In this document: positions 22,105 through 30,114 of the stretch, piece after piece
Layout of the letters: every line of letters begins with the position of its first letter
How positions within the stretch are numbered: position 1 is the stretch's first letter
Source: Burkholderiaceae bacterium
GTDB taxonomy: Bacteria > Pseudomonadota > Gammaproteobacteria > Burkholderiales > Burkholderiaceae_E
Length of the DNA: 48,385 nt
Direction: 5' to 3'
Assembly (NCBI GenBank): GCA_019635275.1
Contig: JAHBZV010000020.1
Coordinates: 1-48,385, forward strand
Program-made: the position numbers and the translations under genes
Notes under the pieces: generated by a model
Database searches by the model: none
What the model saw: only the letters and a program-made list of their open reading frames with translations
What the model was told of the DNA's origin: nothing

Positions 22105-25100
22105 ATGGACGATAACGCGGCCGCGACTCCGGCGCCGAGCCCGTCGGAGTGGCTCGCGTTCGCGTTCATCCGCGACGCGCCGCGCATGCCCAACGGCCAG
22201 TACCTGGGCATCGAGACCGCGCCGGTCGAGCCCTGGCCGCACCAGCGCGTCGTCGCGCGGCGGCTGGTCGACGGTTGGCCGCTGTCGTGGATGCTCTGCG
22301 ACGAAGTGGGGCTGGGCAAGACGATCGAAGCCGGGCTGGCGCTGCGCGCGTTGCGGATGTCCGGCTACGTCGGGCGCGCGTTGCTTGCGGTTCCCGCGAG
22401 CATTGCCGCGCAGTGGCAGCGCGAGATGGCCGACAAGTGCCTGCTGCCGTTCGCCCGCGCGCTCGGTGGGGCGCATCCGCGTCACCGGCTGCTGCTGCCG
22501 CGCGAGCACGAGCGTGCCGCGTCCTCGCTGTTCGAGCCCGAGCTGCTCGTCGCCTCGACCGGTCTGCTGACGCGGCGCGAGCGACAGCCCGAGCTGAAGG
22601 GTGCCGACGGCTGGGACCTGGTACTGCTCGACGAGGCACACTGCGCGCGCCGATCGAATCCGACCGCCGCGCCCGAGAGCCCGCCGCGCTGGACCCGGCT
22701 CTACCGGATCGCGCGCGACGTGCTGCGCCCGAAAGCTGCCGCGCTGTGGCTCGCCACGGCGACGCCGATGCAGCTCGAGCCGATCGAGGCGATCGATCTC
22801 GCGACGCTCACGCGACGGCTCGGTCCCTTCGCGCTCGAACCCCGGGTCGCGCTCGCCTACTACGGTCTGCTCGCAAGGCTGCGCGCGGGTGCCGGGCTCG
22901 AGCCACTGGAATGGCGCTTCGTCGCGCGCGCGGCGAGGCACGTATTGCGCTTCGACCCCGCGGCTGCCCGCTTCGTCGAGCGGTCGGTGATGCGCGGACG
23001 CGCGGGCACAGCCCTGCGGCGCTGGCTCGACGCCCCCGCCACGGCGAGTGCCGCGCCGGCGCCGTCGCTGCGCAAGGCGGTGCTGCGGCTGCTGTTCGCG
23101 GTGGCGCCGCTGTCGCGGGCGATGATGCGGCACGACCGCGGCCTGCTGCGCCGCTGCCCACCCGCAAGGTCCACTTGCCCGCGATCCGGCTCACCGGCGC
23201 GGAGCGGGGGGTCTACGACCTGTTCGCGCCGTATTGCCGCACCCTCGCCGAGCAGGTCAGGGCGCACAGCCAGCAGCGCATCGCCGTCGGCTTCATGCTG
23301 AGTTTCTTCGGCCTGCGCTTCGCGTCGAGCTACAAGGCGATCCACGACACGCTGGCGCGGCGGCGCGACAAGGTCGCCGCCGCGCTGGAGGGCCGGCTTC
23401 TTCCGTCGCCGGGCGAGACGGTCGGCTGGAGCGAACGCGATTGGGACGAGCGCGACTGGGAGGATCACGAGTGGGAACGGCGTGACCTGGAGGGGCGCGC
23501 CCTCGACGAAGCCGATACGCCGGACGACGGATTGCTGACGGCCGGCCTGCACTGGCGCAGCCGGGTCGACCTCGGCTGGGAGGTCGAGCAGTTGACGGCG
23601 CTGCTCGAGCGGCTCGCGCCGCTTGCACAGCTACGCTCGCCGAAGGTGCGCGCACTGCTGAAGGCGCTGCGCGGGCGCCGCGGCACGGACGGGCGCCTGC
23701 GGCAGGCCGTCGTCTTCACGCGATTCTACGACACGCTGCTCGACCTGCAGGGCTGGATCGAGCGCGACGAGCCGTCGGTGCGCCTGGGGGTCTTCTCGGG
23801 GCCGCGCTGTGCGTGGAGGGACGATGCGCGCGGCTGGCACGGGGCCAGCCGCGAGGAAGTGAAGCGGCGCTTCGTCCGTGGCGACATCGACCTGCTGTTG
23901 TGCACCGACGCGGCCGCCGAGGGGCTGAATCTGCAGTCGGCCGACCTGCTGGTCAACTTCGACCTGCCGTGGAATCCGATGAAGCTCGAGCAGCGGATCG
24001 GCCGGATCGATCGCATCGGCCAGCGCCATCGCACGATCCACGTGATCAACCTCGCCTACCCGGGCACGGTGGAAGAGGAGGTTTACGTGCGGCTGCTGCG
24101 GCGAATCCAGGGCGCGGCAGGTACCGTGGGGGCGCAGCCGCTGGTCGTGCTGCCGGTCGGTCCGGCCGACCTGCGGCGCCTGTCGACCGGCGAGCTCGAG
24201 CCGGAGCGTCTCGAGGCGATCGTGCGCGAGCGGCTGCGGCTGGCACGCGAGCGCGCCGAGTCGATGTCGCCGACCGCGGCCGAACTGCACGCGCTGTACC
24301 GCGAGCTCGGCGACGAGCTGGCGGCGACGAAGCTGCCGATCACGCTCGGGGAGGTCTTCGCGACGCTGGCCGGCTCGGCAACGCTGAAGGCGCTGGGCAG
24401 CGAACGGATCGAGACGCCGCACGGGGCGGCGCTGCTGGTGCGCGGGATTCCCGGCTGCGAGCCGTGCCTGCTCACCGTATCGCGCGCGCTATACGAGCGC
24501 GGTCTGCCGGGGCGCGACGAGCCGCTGCGTCTCGCGACGTGGGGCGAGCCGGCATTCGACCCGCTGGTGGCGCACGTGCTCGCGCGCGGCCACGCGCCGG
24601 CCGGCTTCGCACGCGCCTGCGCCGACGTGCCCGGGACGCGCGCGAGCGTCGTGTCCTGGGTCGTGTCGACGAACACCGGCCCGGTCGTCGTCGAGGAATT
24701 CGGACAGCTTGCGACGCTGCAGCCGGGGGGCGCACGCCGGCCCGACGCCGCGGCGCTCGAACGGGCCACGCAACGCGCCGCGGCGCTGGCCGAAGCCGTC
24801 GCGAGCCTGCGGCAGGTCGAGCGCGACGCGTCGCTGGCCGCCGTGACGCACCACCGGATTCATCGCGCGCTGGCCGCGAAGCTGGTCGCGGCCGCGCCGA
24901 AGGGAAGCCGGCTTCGCGAACTGGAGGCGCATCTTCCCGATTGCACGCGCACGCTGCGGATTCCGAAGCTGGACCCGGCGCTGGTCGCCGCCGAGGCGGA
25001 GTACGGCCTGCTCGAAGCAAAGCGCGACGCGGTCGATCTGCCGGCTTTCTACCAGCGCTGCCTGGTGGCGACACTCGAGCGCGAGCGGCTGGCGCTCAGG

Positions 25101-25187
25101 CGCGCTCGCCGCGGCGAAGGCGAGGACGAGATCGCGCTGGCCGATCTGGCCGAGCGCCTGCTGCGCGGAACGAGCCCGATCCGGTAG
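22105..25187 (+). pseudogene. SNF2/RapA-type superfamily II helicase, frameshifted
   Basis: The first part (22105 to about 23154) carries the SNF2 ATPase half: Walker A DEVGLGKTIEAG, DEAH box in LLDEAHCAR, and motif III ATATPMQ. The match then moves one frame over (LPTRKVHLPAIRLTGAERGVYDLF) and holds the helicase C half: VFTRFYDTLLDLQ, LLLCTDAAAEGLNLQSADLLVNFDLPWNP, and the motif VI region QRIGRIDRIGQRHR. One missing base near 23153-23155 restores a protein of about 1027 residues. Relatives remodel nucleoprotein or RNA polymerase (RapA/HepA). The reading frames are otherwise intact and codon use is normal, so either recent mutation or an assembly error is possible. Confidence 0.85.
23430..23504 (+). 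repeat. Five in-frame 15-base tandem repeats (acidic/Trp pentapeptides)
   Basis: Five successive 5-residue units lie in the helicase insert between its two motor halves. The first three end in Trp (SERDW, DERDW, EDHEW) and the last two degenerate (ERRDL, EGRAL). Units start at 23430, 23445, 23460, 23475 and 23490. It encodes a charged helical or flexible linker. Confidence 0.7.
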
Positions 25188-25247: not shown

Positions 25248-25276
25248 TTGCGATGCCAGGCGCGTGGGGGCATAAT
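25248..25276 (+). promoter_or_regulatory. Sigma-70 promoter of the DUF4102-TetR gene
   Basis: TTGCGA (25248-25253, 4/6) and CATAAT (25271-25276, 5/6) are 17 bases apart. The predicted start is near 25283, 23 bases before the ATG at 25306. CATAAT stands out in a G-rich context. Confidence 0.6.
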
Positions 25277-25305
25277 CGGGGGCATTGCATCCGTGGATTG
25301 GACAA

Positions 25306-26397
25306 ATGCCCCTGACCGACGTCGCCATTCGCCGCGCCATGCCTGCCGCCAAACCCGTGCGCATGTTCGACGGCGGCGGGCTCTACATCGAAATCTCGCC
25401 TGCCGGCGGAAAGCTCTGGCGTTTCAAGTATCGATTCGGCGGCAAGGAAAAGAGGCTGGCGCTGGGGGCCTATCCTGCCGTTCCGCTCGAGGGCTGCAGG
25501 GACGCGGTCACCGGGGAATGGATTCCAGGCGCCAGGGAGAAACGCGACGAAGCCCGGCGACTGCTGGCCAGCGGGGTCGACCCCGCCGAAAGCCGCAAGG
25601 CGCAGAAAGTGCAAAGCCGCGCGCATGCGTCGCAAGCGACTGCCGGCAGTCTGCCCGACGAGACGGCGTGGGCCAGTCGCCTTCCGGGGCGCAGGGCGCA
25701 ACGGGAACTGAGGGAAGAGGTGCTCTATGAGACCGCCGCCCGGTGGTTCAACAACCACGGCTATCACGGCACTTCGCTGAGCGACCTGGCGAAGGAACTG
25801 GGGATCACCAAGGCCGCGCTGTACAACTACGTCGCGAACAAGAGGGAGTTGCTCTACAACATTCACGTGCGCTCGCTCCAGGCGGCGCGGGCCGCCCAGG
25901 ACAGTGCGTCCACCGAGAGCACCGGCCTCGGCAGAGTCCGGAAAATGATCTTCAACTATGTCGCCGCGATCACCGAGTCGCCGACGGTGACGTTCATCCT
26001 GCTGGAAGACGGTGCTCTGGCTCCCGAGCAGGCCGAAGAAATACTCGCCGCCCGGCGCGCGCTCGATCATGAGTTCCGGAGCTGGGTCGCAGCGGGAATA
26101 CGCGACGGGTCGATCCTGCCGTGCGATCCCCAGCTGGTGTCGTTGCTGGTGACCGGGAGCATGGCGTGGGTGACGAAGTGGTACGACCCGAAAGGCCCCT
26201 GGACCGGCGAACAGGTGGCTGAAGCGACGAGCGTGCTGTACGCGCGAATGCTGGGCAGCGCGCCGATCGGTCCGTTGCCGGACAGCGTCGGCAAGATCGT
26301 CCCGGAGGGCGGGCTCTGGATGCCGCCGCCCGCGCGGCCGGTCGGCGGCAACTCCCGATCGGGTCGGTCGGCCCGTTCCCGGCTCGTTGACAGGTAA
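25306..26397 (+). CDS. Integrase arm-binding domain (DUF4102) fused to a TetR/AcrR family regulator
   Basis: Residues 1 to about 100 match the N-terminal arm-type DNA-binding domain of P4-like tyrosine integrases: MPLTDVAIRRAMPAAKP, FDGGGLYIEISPAGGKLWRFKYRFGGKEKRLALGAYP, then REKRDEARRLLASGVDP. No catalytic integrase domain follows. After a polar linker (about 105-130) comes a complete TetR HTH (LREEVLYETAARWFNNHGYHGTSLSDLAKELGITKAALYNYV) and a ligand-binding domain to the end. The whole is 363 residues in one frame with uniform codon use, so it appears expressed. A 12-residue insert (DAVTGEWIPGAR) splits the integrase domain. A TetR-type operator directly follows the gene. The junction looks like capture of an island integrase start by a regulator gene (inference). 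Confidence 0.88.
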   Translation: MPLTDVAIRRAMPAAKPVRMFDGGGLYIEISPAGGKLWRFKYRFGGKEKRLALGAYPAVPLEGCRDAVTGEWIPGAREKRDEARRLLASGVDPAESRKAQKVQSRAHASQATAGSLPDETAWASRLPGRRAQRELREEVLYETAARWFNNHGYHGTSLSDLAKELGITKAALYNYVANKRELLYNIHVRSLQAARAAQDSASTESTGLGRVRKMIFNYVAAITESPTVTFILLEDGALAPEQAEEILAARRALDHEFRSWVAAGIRDGSILPCDPQLVSLLVTGSMAWVTKWYDPKGPWTGEQVAEATSVLYARMLGSAPIGPLPDSVGKIVPEGGLWMPPPARPVGGNSRSGRSARSRLVDR

Positions 26398-26415
26398 CCG
26401 ATCGGTAACTAGACT
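26387..26415 (+). promoter_or_regulatory. Promoter with TetR-type operator in its spacer
   Basis: A perfect -35 TTGACA (26387-26392) is followed after 17 bases by TAGACT (26410-26415, 4/6). The spacer contains TAACCGATCGGTAA (26395-26408) with the perfect 10-bp core ACCGATCGGT. A second GATCGG lies at 26416-26421 and the palindrome GGTTAACC at 26424-26431. A bound TetR dimer would block the polymerase. The -35 lies in the last codons of the regulator gene. The target is the operon starting at 26490. Confidence 0.7.
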
Positions 26416-26489
26416 GATCGGACGGTTAACCTTGCCACGACCGATCGCCGCTCGCGAGACGATCGTTCACTCACGAGAGGGAGAGGGGT

Positions 26490-27656
26490 ATGCGCTGGAG
26501 ACTGGTGACGCTGGGGGCTGCGCTGGCGCTCGTGGCGGGGGCGGCGTCGGGCCAGACCCAGGGCGTGAGCAGGACCGAGATCGTGGTCGGTTCGCTGCAG
26601 GACCTGTCCGGTCCGATCGCCAGCCTCGGCAAGGCGAGCCGCAACGGCATGCAGATGAGGATCGACGAGCAGAACGAGAAGGGTGGCATTCACGGCCGCA
26701 AGATCCGCTTCGTCGTCGAAGATCACGCCTACGACCCCAAGCGCGCAGTCCTTGCGACGCACAAGCTGCTCGAGCAGGACAGGATCTTCCTAATGCTGGG
26801 ACACATCGGCACGCCGACGAACGTGGCGGTGATGCCGCTGCTGTTCGAGCGCAACGTGATCAACCTGTTCCCCTTCAGCCCGGGCAGGCAGATGTTCGAT
26901 CCGGTGCATCGCCTGAAGTTCGCGTCCTTCACTCCCTATTACGACCAGGCGCGCCAGTCCGTCCCGGTGCTCGTCAAGCAGAGGGCGCTGAAGAAGCCCT
27001 GCATCATCTACCAGGACGACGACTACGGCATCGAGCACCTCAAGGGTGCCGAGGAGGGCCTGAGGACGATCGACCTGCAGTGGGTCGAGAAGACTTCGTA
27101 CAAGCGCGGCGCCACCGATTTCTCGTCGCAGGTGGCGCGCATGAGAAGCGCGGGGTGCGACCTGGTCGTTCTCGGCACGCTCATCCGCGAGACGATCGGA
27201 ACCGTCGCCGAGGCGCGAAAGACGGGCTTCAATCCGGTCTTCCTGGGAACGACCGGGATCTACTACGACCAGATCCACAAGCTCGGCGGCGCCGCGATGG
27301 ATGGAATCGTCGCCACCCACACGGCCGCGGTTCCCTACCCGGATAGCGGGTCGGAACAGGTGCGCGCCTGGATCCAGCGCTACAAGAGCAAGTTCGGCGA
27401 AGACCCGTGGATGCACTCGGTCTACGGCTACGCAAACGCCGAGGCCATGATCATCGCGCTGGAGAAGGCCGGGCCCGACCTGAGCACCGACTCGCTCATC
27501 AGGGCGATCGAGGCGACCAGGTTCCCCACGGACATCTTCGGCAGCGCGCAGATGACCTTCAGCCCCACCAAGCGCCTCGGATCGAGCCTCTATCGGTTCG
27601 CCGAGATTCGCGACGGCCGCTGGGTGACGACGTCCGACTACTTCGGCGAGCGCTGA
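26490..27656 (+). CDS. Branched-chain amino-acid-type ABC transporter substrate-binding protein
   Basis: This 388-residue exported protein has a signal peptide (about 1-23, ending GAASG before QTQG) and then the Leu/Ile/Val-binding-protein fold: SRTEIVVGSLQDLSGPIASLGKASRNGMQMRIDEQNEKGGIHGRKIRFVVED is unmistakable for LivJ-like proteins. In aromatic or acyl-CoA degrading betaproteobacteria such proteins often bind carboxylic acids rather than amino acids. No permease or ATPase gene is adjacent, so it is an orphan that must share another system or act as a sensor. GGGAGAGGGG lies just before the ATG. It is the first gene after the TetR-type operator. Confidence 0.9.
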   Translation: MRWRLVTLGAALALVAGAASGQTQGVSRTEIVVGSLQDLSGPIASLGKASRNGMQMRIDEQNEKGGIHGRKIRFVVEDHAYDPKRAVLATHKLLEQDRIFLMLGHIGTPTNVAVMPLLFERNVINLFPFSPGRQMFDPVHRLKFASFTPYYDQARQSVPVLVKQRALKKPCIIYQDDDYGIEHLKGAEEGLRTIDLQWVEKTSYKRGATDFSSQVARMRSAGCDLVVLGTLIRETIGTVAEARKTGFNPVFLGTTGIYYDQIHKLGGAAMDGIVATHTAAVPYPDSGSEQVRAWIQRYKSKFGEDPWMHSVYGYANAEAMIIALEKAGPDLSTDSLIRAIEATRFPTDIFGSAQMTFSPTKRLGSSLYRFAEIRDGRWVTTSDYFGER

Positions 27657-27738
27657 GCCGCCTGCCGCGGCGCCGGCGCGCCGCGGCTCTTCAACGAGCC
27701 CGGCATCTGGGGATGGCCGGGGCACGCCAGGACGAACC

Positions 27739-28947
<1,209 letters not shown>

Positions 28948-28971
28948 GCATCCCGACGAGGCGAGACGACG

Positions 28972-30114
28972 GTGAATTTCGACTACGACGAAGAACAGCT
29001 GGCGTTGCAGGAAACCCTGCGCCGCTTCATCAACAGGGAATACGGCCTGGAGAAGCGCCGGACATTCATCGCGTCCGCCGACGGATTCAGTCGCAGCGTG
29101 TGGTCGAAGTTCGCCGACCTGGGCATTCTCGCCATGCCCTTTCCAGGCCACCTCGACAGCGCCTGCGGCACTGCGATCGACACCATGATCGTCATGGAGA
29201 TTCTGGGGCGCGGCCTGGTCGTCGAGCCGTATCTGACGACGATCGTCCTGTGCGGCGGCCTGATCCGCGACGCCGGCAGCGACTTGCAGCAAAGGGCCCT
29301 GTTGCCGTCCATCGCCGCAGGGGCCCTGTTGATGGCCCTCGCTCACCACGAGCCCGGCACGCGCTACGAGTCGAACCATGTCGCGACGACGGCAAGGCGT
29401 GCGGGCAGCGGCTACGTGATCGACGGTGCCAAGACCGTCGTGCTCGGCGGAGATACGGCAGACAAGCTGATCGTCTCCGCACGCACGAGCGGCGACGTGC
29501 GCGACGATGCCGGCATCTCGCTGTTCATCGTCGATGCGAAGGCGCCTGGAGTGCGCGTCATCGGTTACCCGACGCAGGATGACAGGCGCGCCGCCGAAGT
29601 CGAAATCGCCGAGGTGCAGGTAGAGGCCGATGCCCGGGTCGGGGAGGGGGATCGCGCGCTGCCGATCGTCGAGCGCGCCATCGATCGATCGATCGCGGCA
29701 CTGTGCGCCGAGGCCGTGGGCATCATGTCCGCCCTCAACGAGGCGACGCTCGAATACCTGAAGGTGCGCAAGCAGTTCGGCCAGCCGATCGGCAGTTTCC
29801 AGGCGCTGCAACACCGGATGGTCGACATGGTGGTCGCGACGGAGCAGGCTCGTTCGATGGCGACACTGGCGGCGGTTCGCGCCGATTCGGACGATGCGGC
29901 CGAGCGGCGATTGGCGATCTCGGCGGCCAAGGCCCATGTCGGCCAGGCGTCGCGTCGCGTGGGCCAGGAGGCGGTGCAGCTGCATGGCGGCATGGGCGTG
30001 GTCGACGCGCTCGGCGTCAGCCACTATTTCAAGCGCCTCACGATGATCAACGCCACGTTCGGCGACGCCGACCACCACCTCGGGTACGTCAGCGACCGCA
30101 TGCTGGTCGCGTGA
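28972..30114 (+). CDS. pimD: Acyl-CoA dehydrogenase, pimeloyl-CoA dehydrogenase small-subunit type
   Basis: This 380-residue acyl-CoA dehydrogenase family protein starts with GTG. It has NFDYDEEQLALQETLRRFI at the N-terminus, VVEPYLTTIVLCGGLIRDAGS, HHEPGTRYESNHVATTARR in place of the usual flavin-loop motif, VRKQFGQPIGSFQALQHRMVDM, and a C-terminal QLHGGMGVVDALGVSHYFKRLTMINATFGDADHHL. This matches PimD-type small subunits. It probably forms a mixed complex with the product of the gene before it. The start codon follows a weak GACGACG region; spacing and the family N-terminus support it. Confidence 0.85.
   Translation: MNFDYDEEQLALQETLRRFINREYGLEKRRTFIASADGFSRSVWSKFADLGILAMPFPGHLDSACGTAIDTMIVMEILGRGLVVEPYLTTIVLCGGLIRDAGSDLQQRALLPSIAAGALLMALAHHEPGTRYESNHVATTARRAGSGYVIDGAKTVVLGGDTADKLIVSARTSGDVRDDAGISLFIVDAKAPGVRVIGYPTQDDRRAAEVEIAEVQVEADARVGEGDRALPIVERAIDRSIAALCAEAVGIMSALNEATLEYLKVRKQFGQPIGSFQALQHRMVDMVVATEQARSMATLAAVRADSDDAAERRLAISAAKAHVGQASRRVGQEAVQLHGGMGVVDALGVSHYFKRLTMINATFGDADHHLGYVSDRMLVA

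Follow-up and report, generated by a model that had tools for sequence, protein, structure and literature searches.

The integrase IntS of KplE1 represses its own gene, and the arm site P'1 of intS overlaps the −10 element of the promoter; single arm-site mutations did not lift repression, P'1 was inseparable from promoter activity, and the authors point to sites near the −35 and −10 elements, none of which was isolated (PMC2951348). The integrase IntI of E. coli 536 is described as repressing its own promoter (PMC7286903), and a survey of tyrosine recombinases identifies DUF4102 as the arm domain of the IntSXT group (PMC8138268). A review of mobile-element genes recruited by their hosts presents, in the portion available, transcription factors with helix-turn-helix and other domains and no fusion of an arm domain (PMC8987985). 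Searches of open-access literature gave no description of an arm-TetR fusion. The gene analysed here, which lies in a window of 48,385 nucleotides (the whole stretch of DNA under study), shares its arm domain and its MPLTD start with the DUF4102 (IntSXT-type, P4-like) tyrosine integrases of islands, ICEs and prophages, and like them it has repeats over the promoter and the start codon; unlike them, it is devoid of a core-binding or catalytic domain, continues into a TetR regulator and carries a 12-residue insert. It also resembles the TetR_C_24 regulators PfmR (3vpr), AibR (5k7z) and KstR2 (4w97), in that TetR_N is combined with TetR_C_24, a palindrome lies in a promoter and the neighbours are acyl-CoA and transport genes, but differs from them by a recombinase-derived N-terminal DNA-binding domain and an integrase-type promoter. 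Several DNA-binding modules are likewise combined in Mce3R (9b7y, 406 aa), a TetR-family protein whose single chain comprises two TetR units; both of its modules are of the TetR type, whereas one module of the fusion is a beta-sheet domain from an integrase. The feedback described for intS and intI is only predicted for the fusion, where it would serve a metabolic regulator.

The fusion gene occupies positions 25306 to 26397 of the forward strand, where 363 codons are open from an ATG. Pfam detects Arm-DNA-bind_3 (DUF4102) at residues 3-100 (25312..25605; 74.7 bits for a cut-off of 27), the TetR_N helix-turn-helix at residues 141-183 (25726..25854; 45.7 bits, cut-off 24) and TetR_C_24, the ligand and dimer domain, at residues 209-315 (25930..26250; 86.6 bits, cut-off 26.4), and the list of 15 families with E up to 1 includes no integrase core or catalytic family. 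Likewise, no remnant of an integrase catalytic domain was detected at E 0.01 near the fusion, in the window or at loci L101-L104, in a search in which the positive control, the integrase L003, was matched. We class the predicted protein among the TetR-family regulators, as one whose accessory DNA-binding domain is new, and not among the integrases, since the core-binding and catalytic domains are absent.

We then considered how far this arrangement extends. The sample of the genus comprised 18 genomes, the window's own (G000) included and several of them incomplete. The full fusion is present in four: G000, G014 (ACE_NR_PROT22, hereafter PROT22; 97% identity), G007 (PRO2; 82-83%) and G012 (PRO11; 75-76%), the last three being metagenome assemblies labelled Burkholderiaceae or Burkholderiales bacterium, and the MPLTD start, the frame and the order of the domains are the same in these three as in the window. 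A fifth genome, G005, holds an ortholog of the TetR part only (65% identity), a 268-residue gene with its own start codon and a different leader, which is the most divergent of the five orthologs. The remaining 13 genomes gave no match at E 1e-20 in eight cases, the arm part only in four, all in frames of integrase length, and the TetR part only in one (33%). At the level of the family, 5 of 74 genomes matched at E 1e-60 with up to 27 candidates scored per genome, and all five belong to the genus. Among the matches listed for 399 genomes of the order, 369 of the class and 398 of the phylum (overlapping sets, with thresholds of E 1e-34, 1e-30 and 1e-29), only the window's own gene spans both domains; up to five candidates were scored per genome in these scans, and a weaker fusion could be missed. 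None of the 325 plasmid records with a match covers 80% of the query, and viral contigs yielded one relative, with the arm part only and no fusion. A genome scan, from which 80 of 120 relatives were kept, recovered three fusions (G014, G007 and G012), and the TetR half had no match at E 0.001 in the other 77 loci, in a scan that would miss an arm domain fused to an unlike TetR protein lacking the peptide patterns. One locus, L084, listed with a match to residues 1-203, was rejected as a fusion: the frame there is 81 aa long and has no TetR match. Altogether, no arm-TetR fusion other than the four of this genus was found in the samples searched.

These data bear directly on the initial annotation, which had described a DUF4102 arm domain with an MPLTD start running in one frame of 363 residues into a complete TetR regulator with no integrase catalytic domain: Pfam and the three other assemblies agree with each of these points, and the intact junction in those assemblies refutes a stop or frameshift between the domains. 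Homologues in which only the TetR part is conserved, which it had set against its own proposal, are represented among the orthologs by G005 alone, the most distant one, and the four fused genes keep the arm part intact.

The arm domain carries its 12-residue insert (about residues 62-74) between sheet and helix; the insert is common to the four fusions and occurs in 0 of the 17 non-fusion arm proteins of the same alignment. In the predicted model the arm part has a pLDDT mostly above 88 and, according to Foldseek, lies within 0.6-1.2 Å of the solved arm domains 3ju0 (HAI7), 3jtz and 3rmp (HPI), at an identity of 42% or less. The TetR part is clear by sequence, with a match to PfmR (3vpr) at E 1.1e-20, and was modelled poorly (mean pLDDT of the whole model 66.2; 4 of the 45 alignment rows cover it), and its Foldseek matches (about 10 Å) are therefore given no weight as to the fold. 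Pairwise Nei-Gojobori counts among the four fusions gave dN/dS values of 0.04-0.19 for arm residues 1-66, at dS 0.17-0.86, of 0.03-0.24 for the whole arm part (1-100), of 0-0.18 for TetR_N and of 0.10-0.22 for TetR_C, while the linker between the halves (residues 101-130; 25606..25695) drifts at 0.6-1.8. The excess of synonymous changes in residues 1-66 reached Fisher p values of 6e-5 (window-PRO2), 3e-10 (window-PRO11) and 3e-9 (PRO2-PRO11). The arm part is under purifying selection and is about as constrained as the TetR part; residues 85-100 are changed and less constrained in PRO11, short stretches being noisy. An internal start leading to a TetR-only product was considered and rejected, no start codon within residues 21-138 being common to the four orthologs. 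GTG codons at residues 18 and 139 are common to all four; the one at 139 stands two residues before the TetR_N match, and a product from there would be deprived of the start of the first helix.

As the initial annotation had proposed, the gene appears to have its own promoter. The likely elements, TTGCGA and CATAAT separated by 17 bp (25248..25276, forward strand), are recognised by sequence and spacing, that is, by resemblance to the consensus only. The likely −10 element, CATAAT (25271-25276), falls in the first of two direct arm-type repeats GGGGCAT (25267..25273 and 25279..25285, forward strand), which follow each other at 12 bp; the first is kept in all four fusions, and the second is exact in three and reads GGGGCAG in PRO2. 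A third, inverted copy covers the start codon (25306..25312, reverse strand): ATGCCCC begins the fusion gene in all four genomes, this copy being also constrained by its coding for Met-Pro-Leu. The upstream DNA is largely unlike between PRO2, PRO11 and the window, yet the repeat segment is conserved, GGGGCATAATCGGGGGCAT being kept in the window, PROT22 and PRO11 and GGGGCATAATTCGGGGCAG in PRO2. Many related arm genes are preceded by a similar layout built from other repeats (GGGGTAT, GGGTACC, GGGTATAC, GGGGCCA and more), and of 90 regions upstream of related arm genes, 62 contained a 7-mer in three or more copies, versus 29 of 900 shuffles. GGGGCAT itself stands upstream of five of the six arm genes with 60-70% arm identity. 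The class of the repeat is not simply set by arm identity, L112 (69%) having GGGGTAT, L111 (64%) GGGGCAA and L110 (58%) GGGGCAT; L112, L157 and others that reached 61-69% identity in the genome searches are devoid of GGGGCAT. In the window's genome, the exact repeat pair is found a single time, at the fusion, and three pairs with one mismatch lie at other places (none for the reversed-pattern control); G014 and G012 have the exact pair once each, and in G007 a one-mismatch pair lies at the fusion. One-mismatch pairs elsewhere number 1, 2, 2 and 3 in G014, G012, G007 and G005, for 2, 0, 1 and 3 in the respective controls, so that such pairs are roughly as common as the controls. No such pair precedes the unfused gene of G005. 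At the livK promoter of the fusions no arm repeat is exact; copies with one mismatch are present in PROT22 (GGGGTAT, at the start of livK) and in PRO2 (CGGGCAT). Judged from sequence only, the arm-type repeats overlap the promoter of the fusion gene as they do in self-repressing integrase genes, and the fusion gene likely kept an integrase-type promoter with its candidate binding sites. Neither these repeats nor the 12-residue insert figured in the initial annotation, and the repeats suggest a role for the arm half.

A comparison of arm domains with their repeats points to one residue of this domain. In a first set of 94 rows, 33 were unlabelled and the 61 labelled ones included the four fusions, leaving 57 labelled integrases, among which residue 50 had the highest standardised mutual information with the repeat class of all arm columns: R50 was found in 8/8 rows with GGGGCAT, K50 in 12/12 with GGGTACC and L50 in 15/22 with GGGGTAT; five rows combine GGGGC repeats with K50 or S50. 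The Fisher test on this set used 21 of the 22 labelled L50 rows, one labelled GTACACC being left out. In a second set of 35 rows, 16 were without a labelled repeat (R50 3, L50 5, T50 4, M50 2, S50 1, unread 1); the labelled R50 rows had GGGGCAT (6) or GGGGCAA (4) and the labelled L50 rows GGGGTAT (6) or GGGGTAA (3), giving ratios of GGGGC to GGGGT of 10 to 0 for R50 and 0 to 9 for L50 (Fisher p 1e-5, a value that ignores relatedness), the GGGGC class having been extended beyond GGGGCAT only once the second set was known. Four rows of this set (L110, L111, L112 and L146) had been examined before the relation was found; when they are removed, the ratios are 8 to 0 and 0 to 7. Over both sets, GGGGC repeats accompany 18/18 labelled R50 rows and 0/31 labelled L50 rows, kinship being uncorrected. 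All four fusions combine R50 (codon 25453-25455 in the window) with GGGGC, and in the predicted model residue 50 belongs to the sheet's last long strand (47-55). Residue 50 would thus track one base of the repeat (R with C, L with T), which is a possible recognition rule for arm domains generally and, if the relation holds, would help to predict the arm-type sites of island integrases from sequence.

At the other end of the fusion gene lies the promoter of livK, TTGACA-N17-TAGACT (26387..26415, forward strand), which is kept in all four fusions. Its spacer, between −35 and −10, contains the TetR-type palindrome GTAACCGATCGGTAAC (26394-26409), so that the adjacent TetR-type operator of the initial annotation finds its place. 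The palindrome is exact in the window and in PROT22, near-exact in PRO2 (GTGACCGAGCGGTCAC) and reduced to a half site in PRO11. With up to two mismatches allowed, chance would give 0.22 such sites in the window, and one or more turned up in 19 of 100 shuffles, though the palindrome found has no mismatch; since chance statistics alone are modest, its support comes from its place and its conservation. Looser matches to the operator (up to two mismatches), given with those to the control, number 16/5 in G000, 9/5 in G014, 13/3 in G007, 7/3 in G012 and 6/6 in G005, or 1 to about 4 times the control. In the 150 bp before the fusion gene, three of the four fusions have no site within two mismatches of ACCGATCGGT; in PRO2, one livK-type half-palindrome with one mismatch precedes the gene. 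The probable target is the livK-type periplasmic binding protein gene (26490..27656, forward strand; Peripla_BP_6). It is followed on the same strand by two acyl-CoA dehydrogenase genes (27739..30114, comprising 27739-28947 and 28972-30114), and we infer from the spacing that they share the livK transcript and, from the nature of the neighbouring genes, that the ligand is of acyl-CoA type.

An ortholog of livK adjoins the fusion in all four genomes and is located 6 kb from the TetR gene in G005. There, the TetR gene is surrounded by permease, ABC ATPase, AMP-binding and acyl-CoA dehydrogenase genes, and a promoter TTGACA-N17-CAATAT with ACCGATCAGT in its spacer lies between it and livH. Because G005 has a like site, a like promoter and liv/acyl-CoA neighbours, the TetR half probably had a job, with a livK-type target, before the fusion arose. 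In PRO11 the neighbours are one acyl-CoA dehydrogenase gene and one permease gene. The pair formed by the fusion and livK follows a helicase-type gene in the window, G014 and G007, and is found beside acyl-CoA and permease genes in G012, in surroundings that recall the liv/acyl-CoA cluster of the G005 TetR gene; given these differing surroundings, the pair (25306-30114) seems to have moved. The helicase-type gene that precedes the fusion in the window (22149-25187) possibly contains a frameshift, since its first third and the remainder match separate pieces of PROT22 and PRO2 that do not share a frame in those genomes.

We favour, with a probability of about 0.63, the reading that a TetR_C_24 repressor captured the front end of an integrase, the arm half autoregulating the gene and the TetR half repressing livK. 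A stand-alone TetR_C_24 repressor of a livK/acyl-CoA operon would have been joined to the 5' end of a genomic-island integrase gene in the ancestor of four species of one genus of Burkholderiaceae; it would have taken over the integrase promoter, the arm-type repeats, the start codon and the arm-binding domain, and left behind the core-binding and catalytic domains. The arm half would bind the repeats in its own promoter and repress its own gene, as a feedback inherited from the integrase. The TetR half would repress livK and release it on binding an acyl-CoA-type ligand, which would give two DNA-binding domains, two targets and two control loops. Since three of the four fusions have no TetR-type site before the gene, the arm-based feedback may stand in for a TetR-based one. 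With the promoter, the repeats, the arm domain and the tracking residue all retained, autoregulation by the arm half seems the likeliest role. The evidence comes from four related draft assemblies, and repeat 1, which holds the likely −10, and the inverted copy, which coincides with the codons for MPL, may both be kept for other reasons. A fuller version, in which a self-regulating integrase unit was captured whole, a second specificity is read largely by R50 (with GGGGC) and a ligand-released loop links the gene's own promoter with that of livK, strikes us as rather improbable. The recruitment of mobile-element transcription factors by hosts is known; in the present case an accessory DNA-binding domain of an integrase seems to have been acquired along with the promoter and the sites that belonged to it, and such a capture would provide a functional feedback loop at a single stroke.

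The suggestion of the initial annotation that two different domains could bind two kinds of site is strengthened by purifying selection on both and by candidate sites near each, the binding itself being predicted. Its alternative, in which the N-terminus was recycled from a lost island, agrees with the presumed origin of the arm part but does not account for a domain about as constrained as the TetR part. A related possibility is that the arm domain is a passive leftover, acquired along with the promoter and start signals and retained because it folds well and does no harm, in which case all the work would fall to the TetR half. The G005 gene, whose TetR half seems by its sequence to work alone beside the same kind of operator-bearing promoter, and the relaxed end of the arm domain in PRO11 (85-100) speak for it; however, at dS values of up to 0.86, residues 1-66 are held as firmly as the TetR part, next to a drifting linker, a pattern that selection for folding alone may explain, and the invariant arm residues and R50 are retained. 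We regard this explanation as unlikely, though a serious one.

Architecture can also be read in terms of looping. TetR proteins are dimers, and each dimer of the fusion would carry two arm domains. Dimers bound to the livK palindrome could thus close a loop over the fusion gene through arm domains bound to the upstream repeats: the two clusters of sites are 1109-1127 bp apart on the same DNA, both domains belong to one protein, and the fusion gene and livK remain neighbours in each of the four genomes despite some differences in what surrounds them. This adjacency follows as well from ordinary local regulation, and we give looping a slim chance. It is very improbable that the arm half acts on other mobile elements, binding arm-type sites in islands already resident or newly arriving and blocking the integrases of these islands: the GGGGCAT class is common to several island integrases (for instance L012, L014, L016, L110 and L148), but in the window's genome the exact pair stands only at the fusion, and the nearest resident integrase, L003, has no exact GGGGCAT pair. 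Finally, the assembly of the window's genome is in 162 contigs, and a gene next to the fusion possibly contains a frameshift, which could raise the suspicion that sequencing or assembly joined two genes; three other assemblies (75-97% identity) nevertheless have the same junction and share the arm insert, and such an artefact is hardly credible. A sequencing or frame artefact and a decaying relic were both rejected on the same junction in four assemblies, the purifying selection on the arm domain and the shared insert. The capture of an integrase front end by a TetR_C_24 repressor, with an autoregulatory arm half, is the reading that we retain.

The survey of arm domains also brought some minor observations. 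Repeats over the promoter, often on or near the start codon, accompany DUF4102 integrases at loci L012-L088 and L148-L176. The window's genome has a second arm domain (L005; G000:C92:19911-20135), in a frame that is only 106 codons long from its start and is perhaps a broken integrase gene. At four loci (L028:487-960, L017:5980-6423, L096:485-952 and L097 from 986), proteins of 148-158 aa consist of an arm domain with no integrase part; they are encoded directly upstream of an arm-domain integrase, and repeats precede each of them. In the small proteins of L028, L017 and L096, Arm-DNA-bind_3 is the only family above the cut-off, L097 being outside the Pfam scan, and these arm-only proteins may be stand-alone arm regulators of islands.
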